Below are positions 330 to 10,311 of a stretch of 10,311 bases of DNA, piece after piece (the stretch's first letter is position 1; each line of letters starts with the position of its first letter). Where the stretch lies: the NCBI GenBank assembly GCA_030669465.1, contig DAOVDN010000020.1:1-10311 (forward strand). Direction: 5' to 3'. A program made the translations under genes and the position numbers. The notes below the pieces were generated by a model. It saw nothing but the letters and a program-made list of their open reading frames with translations. It ran no database searches and was not told where the DNA came from. This stretch comes from Desulfobacterales bacterium. GTDB lineage: Bacteria > Desulfobacterota > Desulfobacteria > Desulfobacterales > ETH-SRB1.

Positions 330-3026
330 TTATATGACATTGTAAAAAGGCAGTGTTGTTTTAAGATCTATGCTCAACTCATAATCACTTGAATCAGGAA
401 CTCTTTTAATATTAAATTTTAATTTTCGCCCCAATGCAAGCATCTGGGTGTTTTCAGACAAAACAAGTCCCCATACTTTTTCAATCTTGCGTTTTGCGGC
501 AATTGACAAACAACGCTTGAGCAATTCCGCTCCAATACCTTTCCCCTGCCACGGATCTCCGACAAGGATGGAAAATTCCGCATGTTTTCGATTAACTTCG
601 ATAATTACACGGGCAACTCCGAGCATTCTTTCGCCGGATTCCGATTCTAAAAGAGCTACAAGCGCAATTTCCCGATCATAGTCAATTTGAGTAAACCTGG
701 CAAGCATACTATGAGGAAGATGCTTCAGAGGACTAAAAAATCGATTATACACACTACGAGGAGAAAGAGATTCAAAGAGCTCCACCAAAAGAGGAGCGTC
801 CTCAGGTCTTATGGGTCTGATGAACAACTTGCCGACCCCTTTACATGCTATTTGCATTTCATACTGGTTGGGGTAGGAACTTATAACCAGATGAAGAGGC
901 GACGGAATCTGAGAAGGCTTCAAAAGTATTCTGGCATCAACAGCACAAACATCGTTTCCGGTGACAATCAGCGGGTTGATATCGAGCTGCTCGATCTCCG
1001 GAAAATCCGCTACAAGCTGGGCTAAGCGAACCAAAATTTCTTCAAGCAACATCAAATTTGCCGGTGGCCGGTTCCTGTACCCTTTAAGCAGATGATAAAC
1101 CTTTGTTTCTTCCATAAGTCTTCTGGCCAGCAAGCGGTTCAATGGTGGAAGAGCAATTGATCGATCTTTAATGACCTCGGTCATGATCCCTCCCATTCCA
1201 AAGAGAATCACAGGGCCAAAATCCCGATCCTTTTTTGATCCCATAATGAGTTCATAATCAGAATCTTTGAGCATGGGCTGAATCGTTACCCCCTCAATGC
1301 CGGCCTCTGGATTGTATGCCCGTGCGTTTGTCATGACCCTGTTAAACGCATCAAGCACCTCAGGCCCATTCTTCAGATCGAGCTGAACCCCGTTAGCCTC
1401 GGTTTTGTGTGTGATATCTCTGGAACAGATTTTCATGACAACAGGAAAGCCGGTTTCTTGAGCTTTTTGCAGCGCTTCTTCAGCCGAAGCCGCGACTTCT
1501 GTTCGATTGACAGGAATCCCGTAAGCAAAAAGCAAGGCCTTAGCCTCCACTTCCGTGAGAACGAAATTTTTCGTTTCAAGCGCTCCCTGGATTATTGTTT
1601 GAGCTTTTTTGCGATCAAATTCTACCTTGTGCGGAAGTTTGGATGGAATCTCCTGGAGCATTTCAATGTTTTTGGAATAACGATAAAGATCCATAAACGC
1701 CCGGACAGCGCGCTCTGGTGTATCAAACGTTGGAATGCCCGCTTGATTAAAAATTTCCCGTCCTCTTTCCACACCAGGCCCGCCAATCCATGAAGTAAGG
1801 ACAGGGCAGGATTTTTTCTGAAGTAGACCGGCGAGCAACTCCGCTACAGAGGTTGGATCTGCCAGAGATGCAGGTGAGAGCATTATCAAAAGCCCGCTTA
1901 CTTCATGAGCATTCAGGCAGACTTCCACCACCCTCTTATAGCGCTCCGGAGAAGCATCTCCCAGAATGTCAACAGGATTTGCCCGGCTCCAGTAAGGGGG
2001 AAGGATTTCGTTTAATTTATTGATTGTGTCTGAGCTTAAGCGTACAGGCATTACACCATAATCGGAAAGGGCATCGGCAGCCATCACTCCTGGACCACCG
2101 GCATTGGTAATAATAGCCAGCCCGGGACGCAAGGGCCGAGGCTGTTTGGCGAGAAGTTCCGCACAATCAAAGAGCTCTTCAAAGGTTTTGACACGAAGAA
2201 TTCCTGCCCGCTTAAATGCTGCATCATAAACAGCATCTTCTCCGACAAGAGCCCCTGTATGAGAAGCAGCGGCCAGGGCCCCTGCCTGCGTACGTCCTGC
2301 TTTAAGAGCAATAATCGGTTTTACCCGTGATACTGCCCGGGCCGCGCTCATAAAATTTCTGAGATTGCTTAAGTTCTCAATGTACATTACGATACTGCTG
2401 ACTTCAGGATCTCCGCCAAGATAATCAATCATGTCTCCGAAATCGACATCCAGCATCGAACCGAGACTCACAAAGTAGCTGAACCCAATCCGCTCTCCGA
2501 TCGACAGGTCAAGAATAGAGACACAAATTGCGCCGCTTTGAGAGATAAAAGCCATCTTTCCCGGAAGAGGCATGCAACTTGCGAAACTGGCATTGAGTTT
2601 AGGCCGGCTGTGAATAATTCCAAGACAATTAGGGCCGATGATGCGAAGACCTGATCGCTCTGCCTCTTTTTTGATGGCATCCTCCAGCTCTCTGCCCTTT
2701 GCTCCGGTTTCCTTTCCGCCCGCAGAAATGATAACTATTCCCCCAACTTTGGCCTCTGCGCATTCTTTGACGATTTGCGGCGCCAGAGCGATCGGCACGG
2801 CAAGAATCACAAGATCAATCCGGGACTTAAGATCCAGGACCGAAGGGTGGGTTGGAAGCCCCCAAATGGTTTTATGATGCGGGTTTATTGGATAAACTTC
2901 TCCCGGATATTCCACATGAATCAAGTTGCGCATGATGGCGGAACCAATGCTCCTCTCTCTTTCACTGGCCCCAATAACCGCAATAGATTCCGGCTGAAAT
3001 ATTTTGTCTAAATTATCAACACCCAT
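330..3026 (-). CDS. Acyl-CoA synthetase (NDP-forming) fused to a GNAT acetyltransferase (Pat/AcdA-like)
   Basis: This 898-residue fusion has the order CoA-binding Rossmann domain (about 7-130, starting LDKIFQPESIAVIGAS), succinyl-CoA ligase-like domains (about 150-450), ATP-grasp domain (about 480-705, ending DINPLIV) and GNAT domain (about 735-885, acetyl-CoA loop QGKGIG at 827-832). ADP-forming acyl-CoA synthetases interconvert acyl-CoA plus ADP and phosphate with free acid plus ATP; Pat/PatZ proteins of similar size and order are protein lysine acetyltransferases. The phosphorylatable His of the alpha part is present (SHTG, His256), as is the beta-type His in HKTEANG (His540). Salmonella Pat is reported to lack the catalytic His, so this protein may keep ligase activity. 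The start is set by the family's usual N-terminus; no good ribosome binding site precedes it, and repeats abut the start. Substrate is not predictable; acetyl-CoA is the default guess. Confidence 0.9.
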   Translation of the reverse strand: MGVDNLDKIFQPESIAVIGASERERSIGSAIMRNLIHVEYPGEVYPINPHHKTIWGLPTHPSVLDLKSRIDLVILAVPIALAPQIVKECAEAKVGGIVIISAGGKETGAKGRELEDAIKKEAERSGLRIIGPNCLGIIHSRPKLNASFASCMPLPGKMAFISQSGAICVSILDLSIGERIGFSYFVSLGSMLDVDFGDMIDYLGGDPEVSSIVMYIENLSNLRNFMSAARAVSRVKPIIALKAGRTQAGALAAASHTGALVGEDAVYDAAFKRAGILRVKTFEELFDCAELLAKQPRPLRPGLAIITNAGGPGVMAADALSDYGVMPVRLSSDTINKLNEILPPYWSRANPVDILGDASPERYKRVVEVCLNAHEVSGLLIMLSPASLADPTSVAELLAGLLQKKSCPVLTSWIGGPGVERGREIFNQAGIPTFDTPERAVRAFMDLYRYSKNIEMLQEIPSKLPHKVEFDRKKAQTIIQGALETKNFVLTEVEAKALLFAYGIPVNRTEVAASAEEALQKAQETGFPVVMKICSRDITHKTEANGVQLDLKNGPEVLDAFNRVMTNARAYNPEAGIEGVTIQPMLKDSDYELIMGSKKDRDFGPVILFGMGGIMTEVIKDRSIALPPLNRLLARRLMEETKVYHLLKGYRNRPPANLMLLEEILVRLAQLVADFPEIEQLDINPLIVTGNDVCAVDARILLKPSQIPSPLHLVISSYPNQYEMQIACKGVGKLFIRPIRPEDAPLLVELFESLSPRSVYNRFFSPLKHLPHSMLARFTQIDYDREIALVALLESESGERMLGVARVIIEVNRKHAEFSILVGDPWQGKGIGAELLKRCLSIAAKRKIEKVWGLVLSENTQMLALGRKLKFNIKRVPDSSDYELSIDLKTTLPFYNVI

Positions 3027-3827: not shown

Positions 3828-4111
3828 TCAGAAATTTACAAACTCAAAAAAGCAACTTGTCAGCAACTTGAGGCAGTGGGCACTTAGATTTAAAACGGCT
3901 GACTGTTTGAGCGTATTAGTGAGCGTTAAGAAAGAACGACGACTGAATAAAATTTTCTATGAGTCAGATAATGTCGGCTTTAGCAAGCTTTTTATGAAAG
4001 GATTGCTCTGAGTTCTTTCTTTACGCTCACTTATGCGCGAGTTTCAGCCGTTCTTAAATTTAATTGTCCGCTGCCTCAAGTTAACCTCATAATGAGTTTG
4101 TAAATTTCTGA
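3828..4111. repeat. 284-bp long inverted repeat, MITE-like
   Basis: The two halves are reverse complements over most of their length. The ends TCAGAAATTTACAAACTCA (3828-3846) and 4093-4111 match perfectly over 19 bases. Inside, AACTTGAGGCAG (3865-3876) pairs with 4071-4082; ATTTAAAACGGCTGA (3888-3902) pairs with the region around 4043-4058 with one base indel; and AGTGAGCGTTAAGAAAGAAC (3918-3937) pairs with 4012-4031 with one mismatch. The unpaired centre is about 74 bases. The left arm carries a direct duplication of AGCAACTTG (3851 and 3862). No transposase and no clear target-site duplication are visible. It fills the space between the divergent usp gene and the gene at 4135. Known families with this shape include non-autonomous transposons (MITEs); membership is inferred. 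Confidence 0.8.
4064..4093 (+). promoter_or_regulatory. Possible promoter in the right arm of the long inverted repeat
   Basis: TTGTCC (4064-4069) and CATAAT (4088-4093), spaced 18 bases apart, resemble -35 and -10 boxes. Start of transcription would fall near 4100, giving a leader of about 35 bases to the gene at 4135. The -10 box lies in a part of the arm with no match in the left arm. Evidence is limited to these two boxes. Confidence 0.3.
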
Positions 4112-4134: not shown

Positions 4135-4620
4135 ATGAAACAAAAATATTTAATTTCTAAAGACAATGGAAAAGACAAGCTGGTAATCAGAGAATTTGCC
4201 GAATTAGATAAAGAAATGTTCTCACTTCTCTGCGAAGAAGTATATGATGATGAGGCTATAGAATCCTCAATTGCAAAGGGCAAGGCGTCTCTTATTTCTA
4301 CATTGAGGACTCAAAACATGTATCCGTCCGGTTCATATGCAGATAAAATAGCTGAATCGGTCATAACTATCTATGGTTCAGAAAAAAATCAATCCACGGA
4401 GCTTTTTTTTGATGACATTGATCTATTAACAAAGGATCAGAAAAAGCCGGAGGTTGTAAAAGTTATTGAAAAGGAGCCGGTTGAGATTGATGAATTGCTT
4501 GAAGATGAATCTGAAGTACATTTTGATGAAGACGATTTTGCTAAGAATGCAATAAAAAAGAATAATCTTCTTATTAAAGTAGCAGAGGATGAACCGGCTG
4601 ATATTGAAGAAGAGAGCTAA
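4135..4620 (+). CDS. Acidic protein of unknown function, 161 residues
   Basis: I do not recognise a family. The gene looks real: AAGGAG at 4121-4126 lies eight bases before ATG, and the frame is open for 161 codons between a structured intergenic repeat and a regulated leader. The N-terminal half (about 1-95) is of mixed composition and could fold, with predicted helix-like stretches such as LDKEMFSLLCEEVYDD. The C-terminal third is very acidic (DELLEDESEVHFDEDDFA and a tail ending EDEPADIEEES), interrupted by a lysine-rich KNAIKKNNLLIKVA segment. There is no signal peptide, membrane segment or cysteine cluster (a single Cys near residue 33), so a cytoplasmic location is likely. Acidic tails often serve protein-protein contact or nucleic acid mimicry, but nothing here shows which. 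It is separated from moaA by its own gap and riboswitch, so no shared function is implied. Confidence 0.75.
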   Translation: MKQKYLISKDNGKDKLVIREFAELDKEMFSLLCEEVYDDEAIESSIAKGKASLISTLRTQNMYPSGSYADKIAESVITIYGSEKNQSTELFFDDIDLLTKDQKKPEVVKVIEKEPVEIDELLEDESEVHFDEDDFAKNAIKKNNLLIKVAEDEPADIEEES

Positions 4621-4651
4621 TTTACCAAGCCTGATTTGTTTAAATTTCTCC

Positions 4652-4680
4652 TTGACAGGAGGGTAAATCCAATTTATGTA
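4652..4680 (+). promoter_or_regulatory. Putative promoter of the riboswitch-moaA transcript
   Basis: A consensus -35 box TTGACA (4652-4657) is followed after 17 bases by TATGTA (4675-4680), a modest -10 box. Transcription would start near 4687, about 30 bases before the aptamer. The -35 box lies within a small palindrome, CTCCT-TGAC-AGGAG (4648-4661), which could also be an operator or a remnant terminator for the upstream gene. Confidence 0.45.
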
Positions 4681-4716
4681 TTTTGCTAAATAAGTAATCT
4701 ATTAAAATTTGTTAAA

Positions 4717-4810
4717 CGTACAGAGAAAAGGGCAAACCTGCCGAAAGGCAGTGACGCAAAACCACGGGTCTACAGCTGAAGGGTCATGATTGCCGGGTTG
4801 CCGAGCGTAC
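4717..4810 (+). ncRNA. GEMM-I riboswitch aptamer (cyclic di-GMP-I type)
   Basis: The leader carries the GEMM-I conserved pieces in order: GGGCAAACC (4730-4738); hairpin CTGCC-GAAA-GGCAG (4738-4751) with its GNRA tetraloop; GACGCAAA (4753-4760); GGGTCT (4766-4771); and GCCGGGTTGCC (4792-4802), whose TTGCC pairs with GGCAA of the first block. Aligned by eye to the Vibrio Vc2 aptamer, the ligand-contacting G20 and C92 correspond to G4731 and C4802. G at position 20 is the state tied to cyclic di-GMP, whereas the cGAMP-sensing Geobacter variants carry A there. It is therefore predicted to sense cyclic di-GMP, acting in cis on moaA through the terminator at 4825. The structural class is clear from the motifs; ligand choice is inferred. 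Confidence 0.9.
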
Positions 4811-4824
4811 AAGGTGCTTTGAAT

Positions 4825-4861
4825 AACGCCTTTGGTGAGGATATGCCGGAGGCGTTTTTTG
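4825..4861 (+). terminator. Intrinsic terminator, expression platform of the riboswitch
   Basis: AACGCCT (4825-4831) pairs with AGGCGTT (4850-4856). The stem continues inward through two G-U pairs and GG/CC to about 11-12 bp around a loop near 4837-4844, and a run of T follows through 4860. It lies 14 bases after the aptamer and just before the moaA ribosome binding site. This is the layout of a transcription-attenuating riboswitch. Whether ligand turns the gene on or off cannot be decided by eye. Confidence 0.85.
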
Positions 4862-4879
4862 TTTTAGGAGGTTGCGGTG

Positions 4880-5917
4880 ATGGCGGATCTCGATAAAAGG
4901 ATAATAAGATTGCCAAATACAAAATTACCAAATGCAAAATTAATAGACAGGTACAACCGCTACCTTAATTATCTTCGCATATCTATTACCGACCGTTGCA
5001 ACCTGCACTGCATATACTGTACCTCCAATGATTTTGTTCCAAGCCTCCCACATAAAGAGATTTTAAGATATGAAGAAATCCTGCGTCTTGTCAGGATAGG
5101 TGTAAACCTTGGAATCTCCAAGGTCAGGATAACCGGTGGAGAACCCCTTGTCAGAAAGGGTGTTTATGACTTTTTAGATGAATTGACCAAAATTGACGGG
5201 CTTTCAGATGTATCTCTCACCACAAATGGCGTCCTTCTTAAAGATAACATCGAAAAAATTAAATCTGCCGGCATAAAGCGAATAAACATCAGCATGGATA
5301 CGTTAGACAGGCAAAAGTTTGAGAAAATAACAGGATACGATTTATTTCATCAGACCTGGGAGGGGATAGAGCTGGCGCAAAAGATGGGTTTTGATCCAAT
5401 TAAGCTCAATATAGTAGCTCTTAGAGGTATAAATGATGATGAACTGGTAGACATTGCCCGCTTATCATTTTCCTATCCCTTTTATGTGCGATTTATCGAA
5501 TACATGCCGATCGGAACCCCATGTGTGAATATCAGCGGAAATTTGCTCATCCCTGAAATAAAAAAACGGTTGAGCGTATTGGGCAAGCTGATTCCTGTTG
5601 AAAAAGGAATCAATGACGGCCCGGCCACGCGTTATAAATTTGAAGGTGCTAAAGGAGAAATAGGCTTTATAAGTCCTTTGAGTCATCACTTTTGTAATAA
5701 GTGCAACCGGCTGAGATTAACGGCAAACGGCCAGTTAAGGCCATGCCTTTTATCCGATTATCAAGAAGATCTTAAGGGTGCGCTTAGAAAAGGATGTTTG
5801 GACAATGATCTGGCTGATATTTTCCTTAGCACTGTATCTCACAAACCATTTGAACATAACCTGGTCAGCGATAAACCCGCCATGATTTCAGGCCGGATGT
5901 CCGCAATTGGCGGGTAA
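4880..5917 (+). CDS. moaA: GTP 3',8-cyclase MoaA (molybdenum cofactor biosynthesis)
   Basis: MoaA is a radical SAM enzyme that converts GTP to (8S)-3',8-cyclo-7,8-dihydro-GTP, the first step of molybdopterin synthesis in the cytoplasm. This 345-residue protein has the expected length and all key motifs: radical SAM CNLHCIYC (Cys40, 44, 47), the GGEP motif ITGGEPLVRKG, the C-terminal cluster CNKC with a further Cys 13 residues on (Cys272, 275, 289), and the C-terminal Gly-Gly after MSAI. ATG at 4880 is preferred, eight bases after AGGAGG; an in-frame GTG at 4877 would add one residue. It sits behind a cyclic-dinucleotide riboswitch and 200 bases before fdhA, whose pterin cofactor it helps make. 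The N-terminus carries a 5-residue duplication (LPNTK/LPNAK) from a 15-bp DNA repeat. Confidence 0.96.
   Translation: MADLDKRIIRLPNTKLPNAKLIDRYNRYLNYLRISITDRCNLHCIYCTSNDFVPSLPHKEILRYEEILRLVRIGVNLGISKVRITGGEPLVRKGVYDFLDELTKIDGLSDVSLTTNGVLLKDNIEKIKSAGIKRINISMDTLDRQKFEKITGYDLFHQTWEGIELAQKMGFDPIKLNIVALRGINDDELVDIARLSFSYPFYVRFIEYMPIGTPCVNISGNLLIPEIKKRLSVLGKLIPVEKGINDGPATRYKFEGAKGEIGFISPLSHHFCNKCNRLRLTANGQLRPCLLSDYQEDLKGALRKGCLDNDLADIFLSTVSHKPFEHNLVSDKPAMISGRMSAIGG
4913..4942 (+). repeat. 15-bp tandem duplication inside moaA
   Basis: CCAAATACAAAATTA (4913-4927) and CCAAATGCAAAATTA (4928-4942) differ at one base. The repeat is in frame, adds five residues before the radical SAM core, and should be tolerated. 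Confidence 0.8.
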
Positions 5918-5987
5918 TTTGATAGTATAGGACATCTCATTTTTCGGCGATTTTATCAAGAGATTGCTAAATAATAACCGTTCATAA

Positions 5988-6069
5988 GAGCGAAGAGCGA
6001 AGAGCGAAGAGCTAAGAGCTAAGAGCTAAGAGCTAAGAGCTAAGAGCTAAGAGCTAAGAGCTAAGAGCT
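5988..6069. repeat. Heptamer tandem array between moaA and fdhA
   Basis: Eleven complete 7-bp units are joined head to tail: three GAGCGAA (5988-6008), then eight GAGCTAA (6009-6064), ending in a partial GAGCT. The units are perfect within each block. The period of seven is not a codon multiple, so it is not coding. Slipped-strand changes in copy number would alter the moaA-fdhA spacing. The gap 5918-6117 holds no other gene and I see no clear promoter or U-tract terminator in it. Confidence 0.9.
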
Positions 6070-6117: not shown

Positions 6118-9100
6118 ATGAATGTAACACGAAGGGAGTTTATCCAGGTCACTGGTGCAACGGCTGCCGGTCTTGCAGTAAGCGGTCTGGGGTTTGACCT
6201 TTCGCCGGTCAAATCCCATGCGCAGATGCTAAAGACCAAGTATGCCAAAGAGACCACCACGATCTGCTGCTACTGTGCGGTAGGCTGCGGAGCCATTGTG
6301 CATACAAGCAAGAAAGGTGATGGGCGTGTCATCAGCATCGAAGGTGACCCGGACCACGTTATTAACCGGGGTTCGCTTTGTTCAAAGGGCGCTGCGATTT
6401 CTCAACTGACCGAGAATGAAAACAGGCTTGTTGAACCGATGTACAGAGCCCCTTACTCTAAAAAATGGAAAAAGGTTTCATGGGACTGGGCGCTTACAAA
6501 AATCGCCGAAAGAGTAAAAGAGACAAGAGATGCCACATTTAAACACAAAAATGTTATAGGACAGGTGGTTAACCGGACCGTCGGCATTGCATCTGTTGGA
6601 AGCGCAGCCATGGACAATGAGGAGTGCTGGATCTACCAGGCGCTGATGCGTGCTCTCGGGCTTGTCTATATTGAACATCAGGCCCGTATCTGACATAGCG
6701 CACCTGTTGCGGCTCTGGTAGTGTCGTTCGGCGGTGGCGCAATTACAAATCAGTGGTTCTATAGCAAAAACCGCGACTGTATATTGATTATGGGGAGTAA
6801 TGCTGCAGAAAATCATCCCATATCGTTTAAGTATGTCACGATGGCACAACAAAATGGCGCCAAGATGATTAATGTTGACCCCAGATTTACAAGGACATCC
6901 TCAAAGGCAGATATGTACACATCACTGCGTTCAGGTACGGATATCGCATTTCTGGGAGGTATGATCAAGTACATACTCGACAACAAGCTCTACAATGAAG
7001 AGTATGTTACAAACTACACAAATGCTGGGTTTTTAGTTGGAAAGGCTTTTAAATTTAAAGACGGTCTATTTTCCGGCTATGATGCCAAAAACAAGAAATA
7101 TAACAAGAGCAAGTGGGCTTTTGATATGGACGCAAAGGGTGTCCCGAAAATGGATCGTTCTTTGAAGGACAGCCGCTCTGTACTTCAGCTTTTAAAGAAA
7201 CATTACGACAGATATAATACCAAATTGGTTTCCAAAATTACCGGCACCCCGGAAGCTGATCTTCTGGAGGTTTATAAAACTTATGCCGCTACCGGCGCCA
7301 GGGGTAAGGCGGGTACAATTATGTATGCCATGGGCTGGACCCAGCATACTGTAGGAGTCCAGAATATCCGGACAATGGCAATGATACAGCTTCTTCTGGG
7401 CAACATGGGCGTTGCAGGCGGTGGTGTCAATGCATTGCGCGGCGAGTCAAATGTGCAGGGTTCTACTGACCAGTGCCTCCTCTGGCACATCTGGCCCGGT
7501 TATCTCAAGACCCCGAGGGCATCAAATGTAGCGCTTGCTGCCTACAACAAAAGGTGGACTCCAAAGAGCAACGATCCTCTTAGCGCCAACTGGTGGCAGA
7601 ATTATCCCAAGTATACCGCCAGCCTTCTTAAATCCTATTTTGGTGAAAACGCCACTAAAGCAAACGATTTCGGGTATGACTGGCTGCCGAAGGTAGACGA
7701 TGGGACCGATTATTCCTGGTTGACCATCTTTGATGAGATGTACAAGGATAGAATAAAGGGTTTCTTTGCATGGGGTATGAATCCTGCCTGCAGTGGCGCC
7801 AATTCCAATAAAACACGCGAGGCCATGACAAACCTTGACTGGATGGTCAATGTCAATATTTTTGACAATGAGACCGGTTCATTCTGGAAGGGGCCCGGCA
7901 TGAATCCTTCTACAATAAAGACCGAGGTCTTTATGCTTCCTGCTTGCGTATCGGTTGAAAAAGAAGGGAGTATTACCAACAGCGGCCGCTGGATGCAGTG
8001 GCGTTATCAGGGTCCTAAACCTCTCGGGAACAGTAAATCTGACGGCGATATCATCATGGAGCTTGGAGACAAGATAAAAGAGGTTTACAAGGAAGGTGGC
8101 GCATTCCCGGAACCTGTACTCAACCTCAAGTGGGATTATATGACAAATGCTGAATACGACCCGCACAAGGTAGCCAAAGAGATAAACGGCTACTTTCAGA
8201 AAGATATTACTGTTAAGGGCAAATTCTTCAAAAAGGGAACCCTTGTTCCAAGCTTTGCTTATCTGCAGGCTGACGGCTCAACCTCGTCGGCAAACTGGCT
8301 CTACTGCCAGAGCTATACGGAAAAAGGGAACATGGCCGCCAGGCGGAGCAAGAAAGATGCACCGAACAATATCGGTCTATATCCGGAGTTCGCATGGTGC
8401 TGGCCTGTAAACCGGAGGATCATTTACAACCGTGCTTCCGTTGATCTCAAAGGACAGCCATGGGATAAAAAAGACTGGGTAGTCAGGTTTGCAGGAAATG
8501 TCAAGGACGGCAAGTATGTGTCAAAGAAATGGATCGGTGATGTGCCGGACGGTGGCTGGTATCCGTTACAGAATCCTGACGGGTCAATGAGAAAGGATGC
8601 CAAATATCCATTTATCATGAGAAAGCACGGATATGGGCAGATATTCGGTCCCGGCCGCGCGGATGGTCCGTTCCCTGAACATTACGAGCCTCTTGAATCA
8701 CCAGTTGAAAAGAACTTGATGAATAAACAGCGTATGAATCCCACAGCGCCTGTTTACACGACAGATGCTGATCCATACGCAACAAATGATCCGAAATTTC
8801 CGATTGTAGGAACAACATACCGTGTGTCAGAACACTGGCAGTCAGGTCTTATGACACGGCCTCAGCCGTGGCTCCTTGAACTTCAACCTCAGGTTTTTGT
8901 AGAAATGAGCGAAGAGCTAGCCAAAGAGAAAGGCATAAAGAACGGGGAACGTGTGATGGTTTCATCTATCAGGGGATCTGTTGAGTGCACGGCCATTGTT
9001 ACCAAGCGGTTCAAACCGTTCAAGATAGCAGGAAAGGTTGTGCACGAGGTCGGTATTCCGTGGCATTTTGGATGGCGATGGCCTGAAAGCGGTACAGAGG

Positions 9101-9192
9101 AGAGCGCAAATCTGCTCACTCCACCTACCGGTGATCCAAACACCAGGATCCCTGAATCCAAGGCCTTTATGGTCAATGTAACCAAGAAATAG
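6118..9192 (+). CDS. fdhA: Selenocysteine formate dehydrogenase, catalytic alpha subunit (periplasmic, Tat-exported)
   Basis: The enzyme oxidises formate to CO2 at a Mo/W bis-pterin site. The gene reads as one 1024-residue protein if UGA at 6691-6693 is selenocysteine (Sec192); the context ARI-Sec-HSAPVAAL matches the Sec-His active site of FdnG/FdoG, and the frame is unbroken on both sides. The N-terminus is a Tat signal (TRREFIQ, then a hydrophobic stretch, probable cleavage after SHA at 35), so the enzyme acts in the periplasm. A 4Fe-4S site follows: Cys50, Cys53, Cys57 and Cys88 (LCSKG). Strong landmarks shared with E. coli FdnG include NVDPRFTRTSSKAD, GWTQHTVGVQNIRTMAMIQL and GPFPEHYEP. 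ATG at 6118 follows AAGGAGG. fdhB starts 16 bases downstream. By homology to the Desulfovibrio enzyme the metal may be tungsten or molybdenum; sequence does not decide. Confidence 0.95.
6691..6727 (+). promoter_or_regulatory. UGA selenocysteine codon with probable bacterial SECIS region
   Basis: Bacterial Sec insertion needs a SelB-binding hairpin just 3' of the UGA. After TGA 6691-6693 the stretch GTTGC-G-GCT-CTG (6706-6717) resembles from memory the E. coli fdhF element (GTTGC-A-GGT-CTG), with ACC (6702-6704) able to pair with GGT (6717-6719). The stem is weak by eye, so exact boundaries are uncertain even though Sec decoding itself is well supported. Confidence 0.45.
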
Positions 9193-9208: not shown

Positions 9209-9928
9209 ATGAGTAAGTCATTTTTTATAGATACAACTCTTTGCACGGCCTGCAGAGGATGTCAGGTGGCCTGTAAACAGTGGCATAACCTTCCCGCAGA
9301 GAAAACCGTAAACCGTGGAACTTACGAGAATCCAGCGGATCTTTCCTTCGATACATATAAACTCGTGAGAATGCGTGAGCAGGTTATAGACGGCAAACTG
9401 AACTGGCTTTTCTTTCCTGAACAGTGCCGGCACTGCATTGAGGCCCCATGCCTTGAAACAGCACAAGATCCGGAGGCCATATTCAGGGATGATAAAACAG
9501 GAGCGATTATCTTCACGGCAAACACCAGAAATCTGAATGCCGCTGAGATCATTGAGGCGTGTCCGTATAATATTCCCCGCAAAGGTCCTGATGGCACACT
9601 TTCCAAGTGTGATATGTGCCTTGACCGGGTTGAAAACGGACTGCTTCCGGCATGCGTTAAGACATGTCCGACAGGCGCTATGAATTTTGGTGAACGTGAT
9701 GACATGCTTTCTCTTGCCAAAAATCGTCTTGCCGTGGTTAAAAAGACAAAACCGAAAACCATGCTTCTGGATGCGGATGATGTAAGCGTTGTTTATCTTG
9801 TAGCTTATGAACCTGATTTATATCATGAGTTTGCAGTGGCTTCGAATTCTGTCTTTGATATTACAAGGCAGGTGGCATTAAAACGGATGTTCCGTCCGCT
9901 GACAGATATTGCTTCACATCTGCTTTAG
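9209..9928 (+). CDS. fdhB: Formate dehydrogenase beta subunit, three [4Fe-4S] clusters, soluble Desulfovibrio type
   Basis: This 239-residue ferredoxin-like subunit carries electrons from FdhA to an external acceptor. It has exactly twelve cysteines: Cys12, 15, 18, 22 (CTACRGCQVAC), Cys73, 76, 81 (CRHCIEAPC), Cys118 (ACPYNIP), Cys134, 137 (CDMC) and Cys149, 153 (PACVKTCP), enough for three 4Fe-4S clusters. The four-cluster FdnH type has sixteen; here the extra ligands are replaced (CLETA, NLNAAEIIEACP), as in the Desulfovibrio gigas beta subunit. The C-terminal membrane helix of FdnH is also missing, so the alpha-beta dimer is predicted to be soluble in the periplasm, with c-type cytochromes as likely acceptor. 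There is no signal peptide; export would ride on the Tat signal of FdhA. A strong AAGGAGGTGA ribosome site (9193-9202) precedes ATG, and a terminator follows at 9958. Confidence 0.94.
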   Translation: MSKSFFIDTTLCTACRGCQVACKQWHNLPAEKTVNRGTYENPADLSFDTYKLVRMREQVIDGKLNWLFFPEQCRHCIEAPCLETAQDPEAIFRDDKTGAIIFTANTRNLNAAEIIEACPYNIPRKGPDGTLSKCDMCLDRVENGLLPACVKTCPTGAMNFGERDDMLSLAKNRLAVVKKTKPKTMLLDADDVSVVYLVAYEPDLYHEFAVASNSVFDITRQVALKRMFRPLTDIASHLL

Positions 9929-10016: not shown

Positions 10017-10311
10017 ATGACAGAAAATATGGCCATTACTTCTGATCAGATCAAAAAAGCTGTAGCGGCATTAAAGAAGTTAAGGCCTGTTTACGCAAAT
10101 ATTTTAGACTTTTATGAACAAATTTTTATCGCCCAGGAAGATTCCAAAAGCAAGATACATATTGACCCAATAAAGATTTCCGAAGAGATGCTTGCAATTA
10201 AGGCAAATGAAAGTTTTCCCCTCATAAACATGTCGGAATTTGCAATAGATCAAAAAGCATTCAGAGCGCTTTTAATAGGAATTTGCAATATAGCAAAAGG
10301 ATCGGGCGTAG
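10017..10311 (+). CDS. fdhE: FdhE-like formate dehydrogenase maturation protein, N-terminal part (cut by window edge)
   Basis: ATG at 10017 follows AAGGAG (10006-10011), and the frame stays open for 98 codons to the window edge. The visible part starts MTENMAITSDQIKKAVAALK, continues RPVYANILDFYEQIFIAQED and then IKISEEMLAIKANESFPLIN, which fits the helical N-terminus of Desulfobacterota FdhE proteins. FdhE is a cytoplasmic rubredoxin-like iron protein that acts in maturation or export proofreading of Tat-dependent formate dehydrogenases. Its diagnostic CxxC pairs lie in the C-terminal part beyond this window, so the call rests on the N-terminal pattern plus position right after fdhAB. It lies beyond the fdhB terminator, so it may be expressed at a lower level or from its own promoter. 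Confidence 0.72.
   Translation, partial: MTENMAITSDQIKKAVAALKKLRPVYANILDFYEQIFIAQEDSKSKIHIDPIKISEEMLAIKANESFPLINMSEFAIDQKAFRALLIGICNIAKGSGV

Follow-up and report, generated by a model that had tools for sequence, protein, structure and literature searches.

The 10,311-nucleotide stretch of DNA that we analysed, called the window throughout, carries a riboswitch aptamer and an intrinsic terminator between a conserved gene of unknown function and moaA, and moaA is followed on the same strand by genes for a formate dehydrogenase. The features concerned are these:

4135..4620, + strand: hyp161, a conserved hypothetical gene that precedes the riboswitch
4652..4680, + strand: probable sigma-70 type promoter (TTGACA 4652-4657, 17-nt spacer, TATGTA 4675-4680), by direct reading
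4717..4721, + strand: 5' strand of P1, CGUAC (GUAC 4718-4721 pairs with GUAC 4807-4810)
4721..4805, + strand: GEMM-I aptamer (RF01051 76.6 bits; our own model R1 90.8 bits)
4743-4746, + strand: GAAA tetraloop on P2 (GNRA type), from the RF01051 alignment
4798..4807, + strand: proposed antiterminator strand UUGCCGAGCG, which includes C4801 and can pair with 4829-4838
4825..4860, + strand: intrinsic terminator (stem 4825-4856, U-tract 4855-4860)
4866..4871, + strand: ribosome binding site AGGAGG, by direct reading
4877..5917, + strand: moaA, GTP 3',8-cyclase, start GTG 4877 or ATG 4880 (TIGR02666 343.4 bits, cut-off 284)
6118..9192, + strand: fdhA, formate dehydrogenase alpha subunit (TIGR01553 1440.5 bits with TGA read as U)
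9209..9928, + strand: fdhB, iron-sulfur subunit (PF13247 above cut-off; TIGR01582 146 bits, below cut-off)
10017..10310, + strand: start of a third gene, which runs off the window

The fdhA frame contains a TGA at 6691-6693, which is probably a selenocysteine codon, and its product begins with a twin-arginine-like leader, read by eye as TRREFIQ. The 98-amino-acid piece of the third gene gave no Pfam or NCBIfam match; we call the gene fdhE from its position, and most of the relatives' fdh loci have a homologue of it after fdhB. The hyp161 protein also had no match in Pfam or NCBIfam, and its gene is found upstream of moaA in seven of the eight close relatives described below (not in G028) and in three further genomes (G072, G183 and G144), with or without a riboswitch. 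The terminator scan gave no terminator-like site on the + strand in the moaA-fdhA interval of the window, and in the eight close relatives no more than 46-60 nt separate the two matches; a moaA-fdh transcript is therefore most likely what the switch governs. We infer co-transcription from this layout, and the regulated unit is most likely a formate dehydrogenase operon, moaA-fdhA(Sec)-fdhB with a further gene. The first-pass annotation had named moaA as the target; the element does sit before moaA, but that description was too narrow, as moaA appears to head a moaA-fdhA-fdhB operon. The gap between moaA and fdhA is 200 nt in the window, and a large part of it is a 7-nt tandem array at 5985-6069, with about 12 copies of TAAGAGC followed by GCCCGATAGGGC; the array may affect moaA-fdhA coupling.

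Some features farther upstream were recorded in passing. Positions 330-3026 encode a protein that resembles NDP-forming acyl-CoA synthetases and ends in a GNAT acetyltransferase domain, and its gene adjoins a universal stress protein gene. Between the latter and hyp161 lies a nested long inverted repeat, 3828-4111, that resembles a small palindromic mobile element; its arms match at 100% (3828-3846/4093-4111), 86% (3865-3893/4054-4082) and 89% (3911-3937/4012-4038). Another inverted repeat (184-204/259-279, 81%), spanning 184-279 of the window, is possibly a dispersed repeat.

When the whole window was run by cmscan against 4227 Rfam families, RF01051 (c-di-GMP-I/GEMM-I) matched at 4721-4805 on the + strand with 76.6 bits (E 4.5e-14), against a gathering score of 35, and the match covered the full model (1-87). 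A GEMM-I riboswitch at 4717..4876 had been proposed from the letters alone and is borne out by this Infernal search, with position 4717 being the first base of the short P1. The sole other entry listed at E<=1 was a snoRNA match, whose 22.9 bits lie below its gathering score of 40. Model R1 counts the window aptamer, to which it gave 90.8 bits, among its own 27 training rows. Vc2 of Vibrio cholerae is the reference c-di-GMP-I aptamer. In Vc2 numbering, we take model column 11 to be Vc2 position 20, and G4731, A4758 and C4801 to be the equivalents of Vc2 G20, A47 and C92; these bases, the aptamer core and the GAAA tetraloop are what the window has in common with Vc2/RF01051. The three bases and the loop are invariant in all five moaA leaders that carry the aptamer (the window, G028, G091, G329 and G237), across which mean column identity is 86%. 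P1, read by eye as CGUAC/GUACG, is perfect in G329, G237 and G091 and has one mismatch in G028 and the window; in the G329 leader (L238) its 5' strand is duplicated (TTAAACGTACATTAAACGTACAAAG), which gives two candidate P1 strands. By minimum folding energy the leader did not stand out from shuffled sequences, 74 of 200 reaching its value (z -0.40), so the evidence for the element is the covariance model and conservation, not folding energy. Judged by the sequence model, the window leader is a genuine member of the known c-di-GMP-I riboswitch class.

The terminator scan found a stem of 13 pairs with a loop of 6 at 4825-4856, followed by TTTTTT, with a hairpin folding energy of -17.6 kcal/mol. 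The U-tract ends at 4860, and the AGGAGG at 4866-4871 stands 8 nt before ATG 4880, with GTG 4877 as an alternative start; the order originally described, a terminator and then the moaA ribosome site, is therefore correct. The hairpin is kept in the five leaders, in which 98.3% of 59 cells were paired as compared with 37-58% when the arms were slid; covariation among the five amounted to one two-sided change, no more than in shuffles. A consensus promoter scan did not find the box at 4652..4680 that we read directly. Four of the five leaders (the window, G329, G237 and G091) have TTGACAGGAG ahead of the aptamer, with a -10-like element at a spacing of 17 nt, and the G028 leader has no TTGACA. 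The TTGACA box also occurs, nearer moaA, in four close relatives that are GEMM-less (G127, G030, G233 and G244). With the box between hyp161 and the aptamer, the window transcript would start a few tens of bases before the aptamer.

For its distribution, positions of moaA, fdhA and RF01051 were joined over 194 genomes of the order of G001, and the closest moaA relatives were sought among 389 genomes of the class and 58 relatives of G091, sets that overlap. The nearest named moaA loci came from MAGs titled Desulfobacteraceae, Deltaproteobacteria or Desulfobacterales. We found 12 moaA-fdhA gene pairs, including that of the window. Eight close relatives have moaA directly before fdhA (G028, G091, G329, G237, G127, G030, G233 and G244), with MoaA 74-77% identical to that of the window over aligned stretches. 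RF01051 precedes moaA in G028 (71.9 bits), G091 (70.2), G329 (76.7) and G237 (77.6), with the terminator at the same place and FdhA 84-87% identical to that of the window over aligned stretches, and no aptamer was found before the operonic moaA of the other four. GEMM-I with the same platform is thus present in five of the nine operons of one MoaA group, window included. G072, G183 and G144 carry hyp161-moaA-fdhA with a MoaA 59-62% identical to that of the window; their leaders have no GEMM-I, as a filter-free model search returned only 7.6-9.8-bit matches located downstream of the moaA start. This leaves seven of the 12 operons found without the riboswitch. Weak RF01051 matches in G072, G144 and G127 were rejected as moaA-fdhA switches, being on contigs other than those of moaA-fdhA.

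None of 101 other moaA loci scanned carried GEMM-I (41 loci and 60 leaders, the latter including G072, G183 and G144). The 41 are 46 sources less the window and L077-L080, and two have little upstream DNA (L098 102 nt, L138 360 nt). There were moaA matches in 171 of the 194 genomes; the best 30 were scanned as loci and the next 60 as 600-nt leaders (361 nt for G079), leaving out two at contig ends (G044 and G187), and where moaA is not the first gene of its operon, leaders this short miss a switch at the operon's start. Neither did GEMM-I reach a meaningful score before fdhA lacking an upstream moaA in any of 30 fdhA loci, which gave one 12.8-bit chance match; 26 of the 30 are informative, because L107 and L109-L111 are operon loci that end short of the leader, and in three of the 26 (G191, G175 and G159) moaA follows fdhA instead. 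An Rfam scan of 20 of the 30 found no GEMM-I, and a plasmid search with window positions 4600-5920 gave no match. The survey of moaA leaders that had been proposed for Desulfobacterota, covering part of one order and class, therefore revealed the same arrangement in one MoaA group, but with five of nine operons there, none of the three further moaA-fdhA operons and none of the other loci scanned it is not a general Desulfobacterota habit.

GEMM-I itself is common in the order, where at least 135 of the 194 genomes have an RF01051 match. Elsewhere its targets look different from moaA and formate dehydrogenase: fibronectin-III domains were the ones that Pfam found most often, in 13 of 42 ORFs downstream of other GEMM-I sites, and PKD, TSP3 and peptidase M23 in others, in a tally from 25 of the 29 families listed and with ORFs picked by a simple rule, so that some may be wrong. 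These ORFs came from 43 of the 44 loci L033-L076, mostly of one order (L044, below the Rfam cut-off, was left out, and L064 gave no ORF). By tblastn at E<=1e-8, the 44 loci held no homologue of the window's proteins.

The window and its eight relatives formed one clade in a 53-row MoaA tree (support 96/87). When three rows (G072, G183 and G144) were added and four distant ones (L006-L009) removed, the resulting 52-row tree kept the same nine together at 93/85, just under the mark for firm support, with the three as a separate clade (100/99). Inside the nine-member clade the window, with GEMM-I, is basal; G091, which has the element, is sister to G030, which does not, and G127, G233 and G244, all without it, group together. 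The simplest reading would be that the ancestor of the nine acquired GEMM-I once and that the element was lost, or the leader replaced, twice; other histories are possible. The GEMM-less leaders of G127, G030 and G244 look alike by eye, so leaders may have been exchanged. G028 appears, from set membership, to lie outside the family set of the other relatives; because of this, the missing hyp161 and a second moaA, its operon may have been horizontally acquired or may reflect a binning error.

We suggest that the element is a GEMM-I transcription attenuator of moaA-fdhA-fdhB for which c-di-GMP is the OFF signal, a reading to which we give a probability of about two in three. At low c-di-GMP, the terminator's 5' arm (4829-4838) would be taken up by pairing with the aptamer 3' strand (4798-4807, with C4801), which would allow read-through. 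At high c-di-GMP, the ligand would keep 4798-4807 in the aptamer and the terminator (4825-4860) would form, shutting off moaA and an exported selenocysteine formate dehydrogenase; a sessile or biofilm state would then mean less formate oxidation and less pterin-cofactor synthesis. It is mainly the non-overlap of terminator and aptamer that argues for a probable OFF direction. The terminator starts 14 nt after P1 (aptamer end 4805, P1 end 4810) and is self-contained, using no aptamer strand, so that the two can coexist, as they do in the Cd1 OFF switch of Clostridioides difficile, where an antiterminator captures the ligand-binding C (PMC9262584, in the sections available). In those sections, terminator-aptamer overlap is what separates the pilM ON switch from Cd1, and a review, in the part accessible, describes the class-I c-di-GMP riboswitches of C. 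difficile as uniformly off switches (PMC9495176). The window resembles Cd1 in its self-contained terminator downstream of the aptamer and in a candidate competing pairing that would capture the ligand-pairing C. It differs in its genes, in a candidate antiterminator rich in G-U, and in P1, which is absent in Cd1 by the same sections of PMC9262584 but can form, if short, in the window.

The antiterminator is plausible, with weak to modest statistical support. All five leaders can form the pairing (94% of 50 cells paired, as against 38-64% when slid), and they show no two-sided changes and a covariation score of 0.290, below the shuffle mean of 0.348. For the window, 11.5% of shuffled strands paired as well; the share was 4.6% for G028, and for G091 none of 2000 did. 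When strands of other GEMM-I loci were swapped in (34 of the 43 were used), 11 of 34 paired as well with the arm of the window, 18 with that of G028, three with G329, one with G091 and 21 with G237, a mixed to negative outcome for the pairing. In a permutation test the cognate strands paired better than permuted ones: over 17 GEMM-I leaders with a terminator, the five moaA leaders among them, 144 of 10000 permutations gave a pairing as good. Eighteen leaders had entered this test, of which L036 gave no hairpin and L069 a weak one; a terminator-like site was present in 15 of the 34 loci, and these supplied the 13 non-moaA leaders once L047 and L057 had been dropped for distance. The terminator 5' arm could pair more strongly farther upstream, with the P2 region in the window and with the P3 region in G028. 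With the antiterminator at about -10 and the terminator at -17.6 kcal/mol, the latter is more stable, and a kinetic switch would therefore be needed.

An ON switch, in which c-di-GMP binding prevents termination, seems unlikely to us. GEMM-I ON switches with a terminator do exist, pilM among them (PMC9262584, sections available), and the antiterminator of the OFF model is weakly supported; however, the pilM terminator uses an aptamer strand, whereas that of the window lies wholly downstream of the aptamer and is not blocked by ligand binding as such. We think it quite improbable that the element no longer switches at all, its hairpin serving as a constitutive attenuator or as a transcription barrier after hyp161 and its aptamer being a relic. 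Such decay would fit a terminator much more stable than the antiterminator and the seven of 12 moaA-fdhA operons that do without the element, but it sits poorly with pocket bases, tetraloop and terminator kept across five leaders as divergent as these, and with a promoter-like box upstream of the aptamer in four of them. That seven rather than four operons are switch-less did slightly lower our confidence in the full mechanism of c-di-GMP-dependent attenuation.

GEMM-Ib cGAMP riboswitches have an A at position 20, where all five moaA leaders and all 27 aptamers of alignment A1 have G. The first-pass annotation had read G4731 as pointing to c-di-GMP rather than cGAMP, and the G in five of five leaders favours this; however, the Vc2 G20 position is a selectivity factor and not a hard filter (PMC9262584, sections available), so c-di-GMP is a likely rather than a proven ligand, and in our judgement a very probable one. 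The part of PMC11352751 at hand lists, in a table, a G20A sensor for cyclic AMP-GMP. RF01051 covers both ligand types, and this, with the softness of position 20, leaves a slim chance that the aptamer senses 3',3'-cGAMP (GEMM-Ib) and that the operon is thereby linked to a Hypr-GGDEF pathway like that of Geobacter. The available text on the Geobacter GEMM-Ib elements describes the same fold in anaerobic respiring bacteria and genes likewise tied to respiration, but those elements are cGAMP-activated and serve extracellular electron transfer genes (PMC6456294, PMC8835794); the window has G at position 20. We also looked at GGDEF hits, 19 in G028, G091, G127 and G030, by the Asp/Ser distinction in the signature that is made in the accessible part of PMC6456294. 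The canonical Asp is present in 12 (GHxxGD with GGDEF, GGEEF or once AGDEF), which speaks against cGAMP, and six have no clear motif, three of them in G028. In one G091 protein (L225) the Hypr signature position holds Ser (GHSTGS...GGDEY), a point in favour of cGAMP, but Pro replaces the neighbouring Asn of the ND motif; the protein is possibly an odd Hypr relative or an inactive enzyme. The hits from G028, G127 and G030 showed no Hypr-type Ser, three of those from G028 being the ones just mentioned without a clear motif. The chance that a Moco-RNA type element controls moaA here, as it does upstream of E. coli moaA, is negligible. As had been pointed out at the outset, the riboswitch candidate known to precede moaA and other Moco genes is the Moco RNA motif (PMC2408646, portion available). 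It has no match in the window at E<=1, against 76.6 bits for RF01051, which refutes it at the level of Rfam models; the two RNAs have moaA as a common target but are unrelated, one giving cofactor feedback and the other second-messenger control.

Riboswitches of the c-di-GMP type are mostly tied to motility, surface proteins and pili and, in Geobacter, to metal respiration. G. sulfurreducens has 17 GEMM-I riboswitches, and 'formate' and 'molybd' are absent from the main text that reports them (PMC6456294). By the excerpts available, the single c-di-GMP-I riboswitch of Oleidesulfovibrio alaskensis precedes norR (PMC11124144), and Eubacterium limosum has Moco RNAs and two c-di-GMP-I riboswitches, the latter not linked to formate dehydrogenase (PMC5651825). 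The accessible parts of PMC5317091, PMC12530212 and PMC11509735 likewise do not link c-di-GMP-I riboswitches to formate dehydrogenase. We found no description of GEMM-I before moaA or fdh in the open-licence literature searched; a gene list or supplement elsewhere may mention it. The RNA class is an ordinary one; what would be new is the regulon, moaA-fdh, and possible c-di-GMP control of a sole moaA.

In seven of the eight close relatives the operonic moaA is the only one over the TIGR02666 cut-off (G028 has two), in draft genomes whose missing contigs could hide more, and the switch could therefore set all molybdopterin supply. Among the RF01051 matches listed, G237 has only the one in the moaA leader, and G091, G028 and G329 have at least two each. 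We tentatively propose, at somewhat less than even odds, that a single c-di-GMP riboswitch gates the genome's only moaA, and with it molybdopterin for all Mo/W enzymes as well as the adjoining exported selenocysteine formate dehydrogenase. If so, a lifestyle signal would directly control cofactor capacity and formate-linked, perhaps syntrophic, electron flow, and sister species without the element would be lineages that uncoupled the signal from the operon. As several species share the arrangement, formate metabolism may be gated by a lifestyle signal; c-di-GMP would govern both formate oxidation and cofactor biosynthesis in Desulfobacterales-like anaerobes, and interspecies formate exchange there may depend on attached versus free living. 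Because sister species hold the same operon with and without the switch, its regulatory effect can be tested by direct comparison.

Two other GEMM-I sites in the relatives deserve a brief mention, their neighbours having been named by eye. In G091 the other GEMM-I (L231 1501-1590) is followed by an ORF resembling a flagellar cap or hook-associated protein, a classical c-di-GMP target. The second GEMM-I of G028 (L237 1501-1581, 59.4 bits) lies just after a 299-amino-acid reverse transcriptase-like ORF (1652-2551, - strand, of L237, motif FVDD), with a small HicB-like ORF coming next; it would be unusual to find a c-di-GMP aptamer next to a retroelement-like gene.
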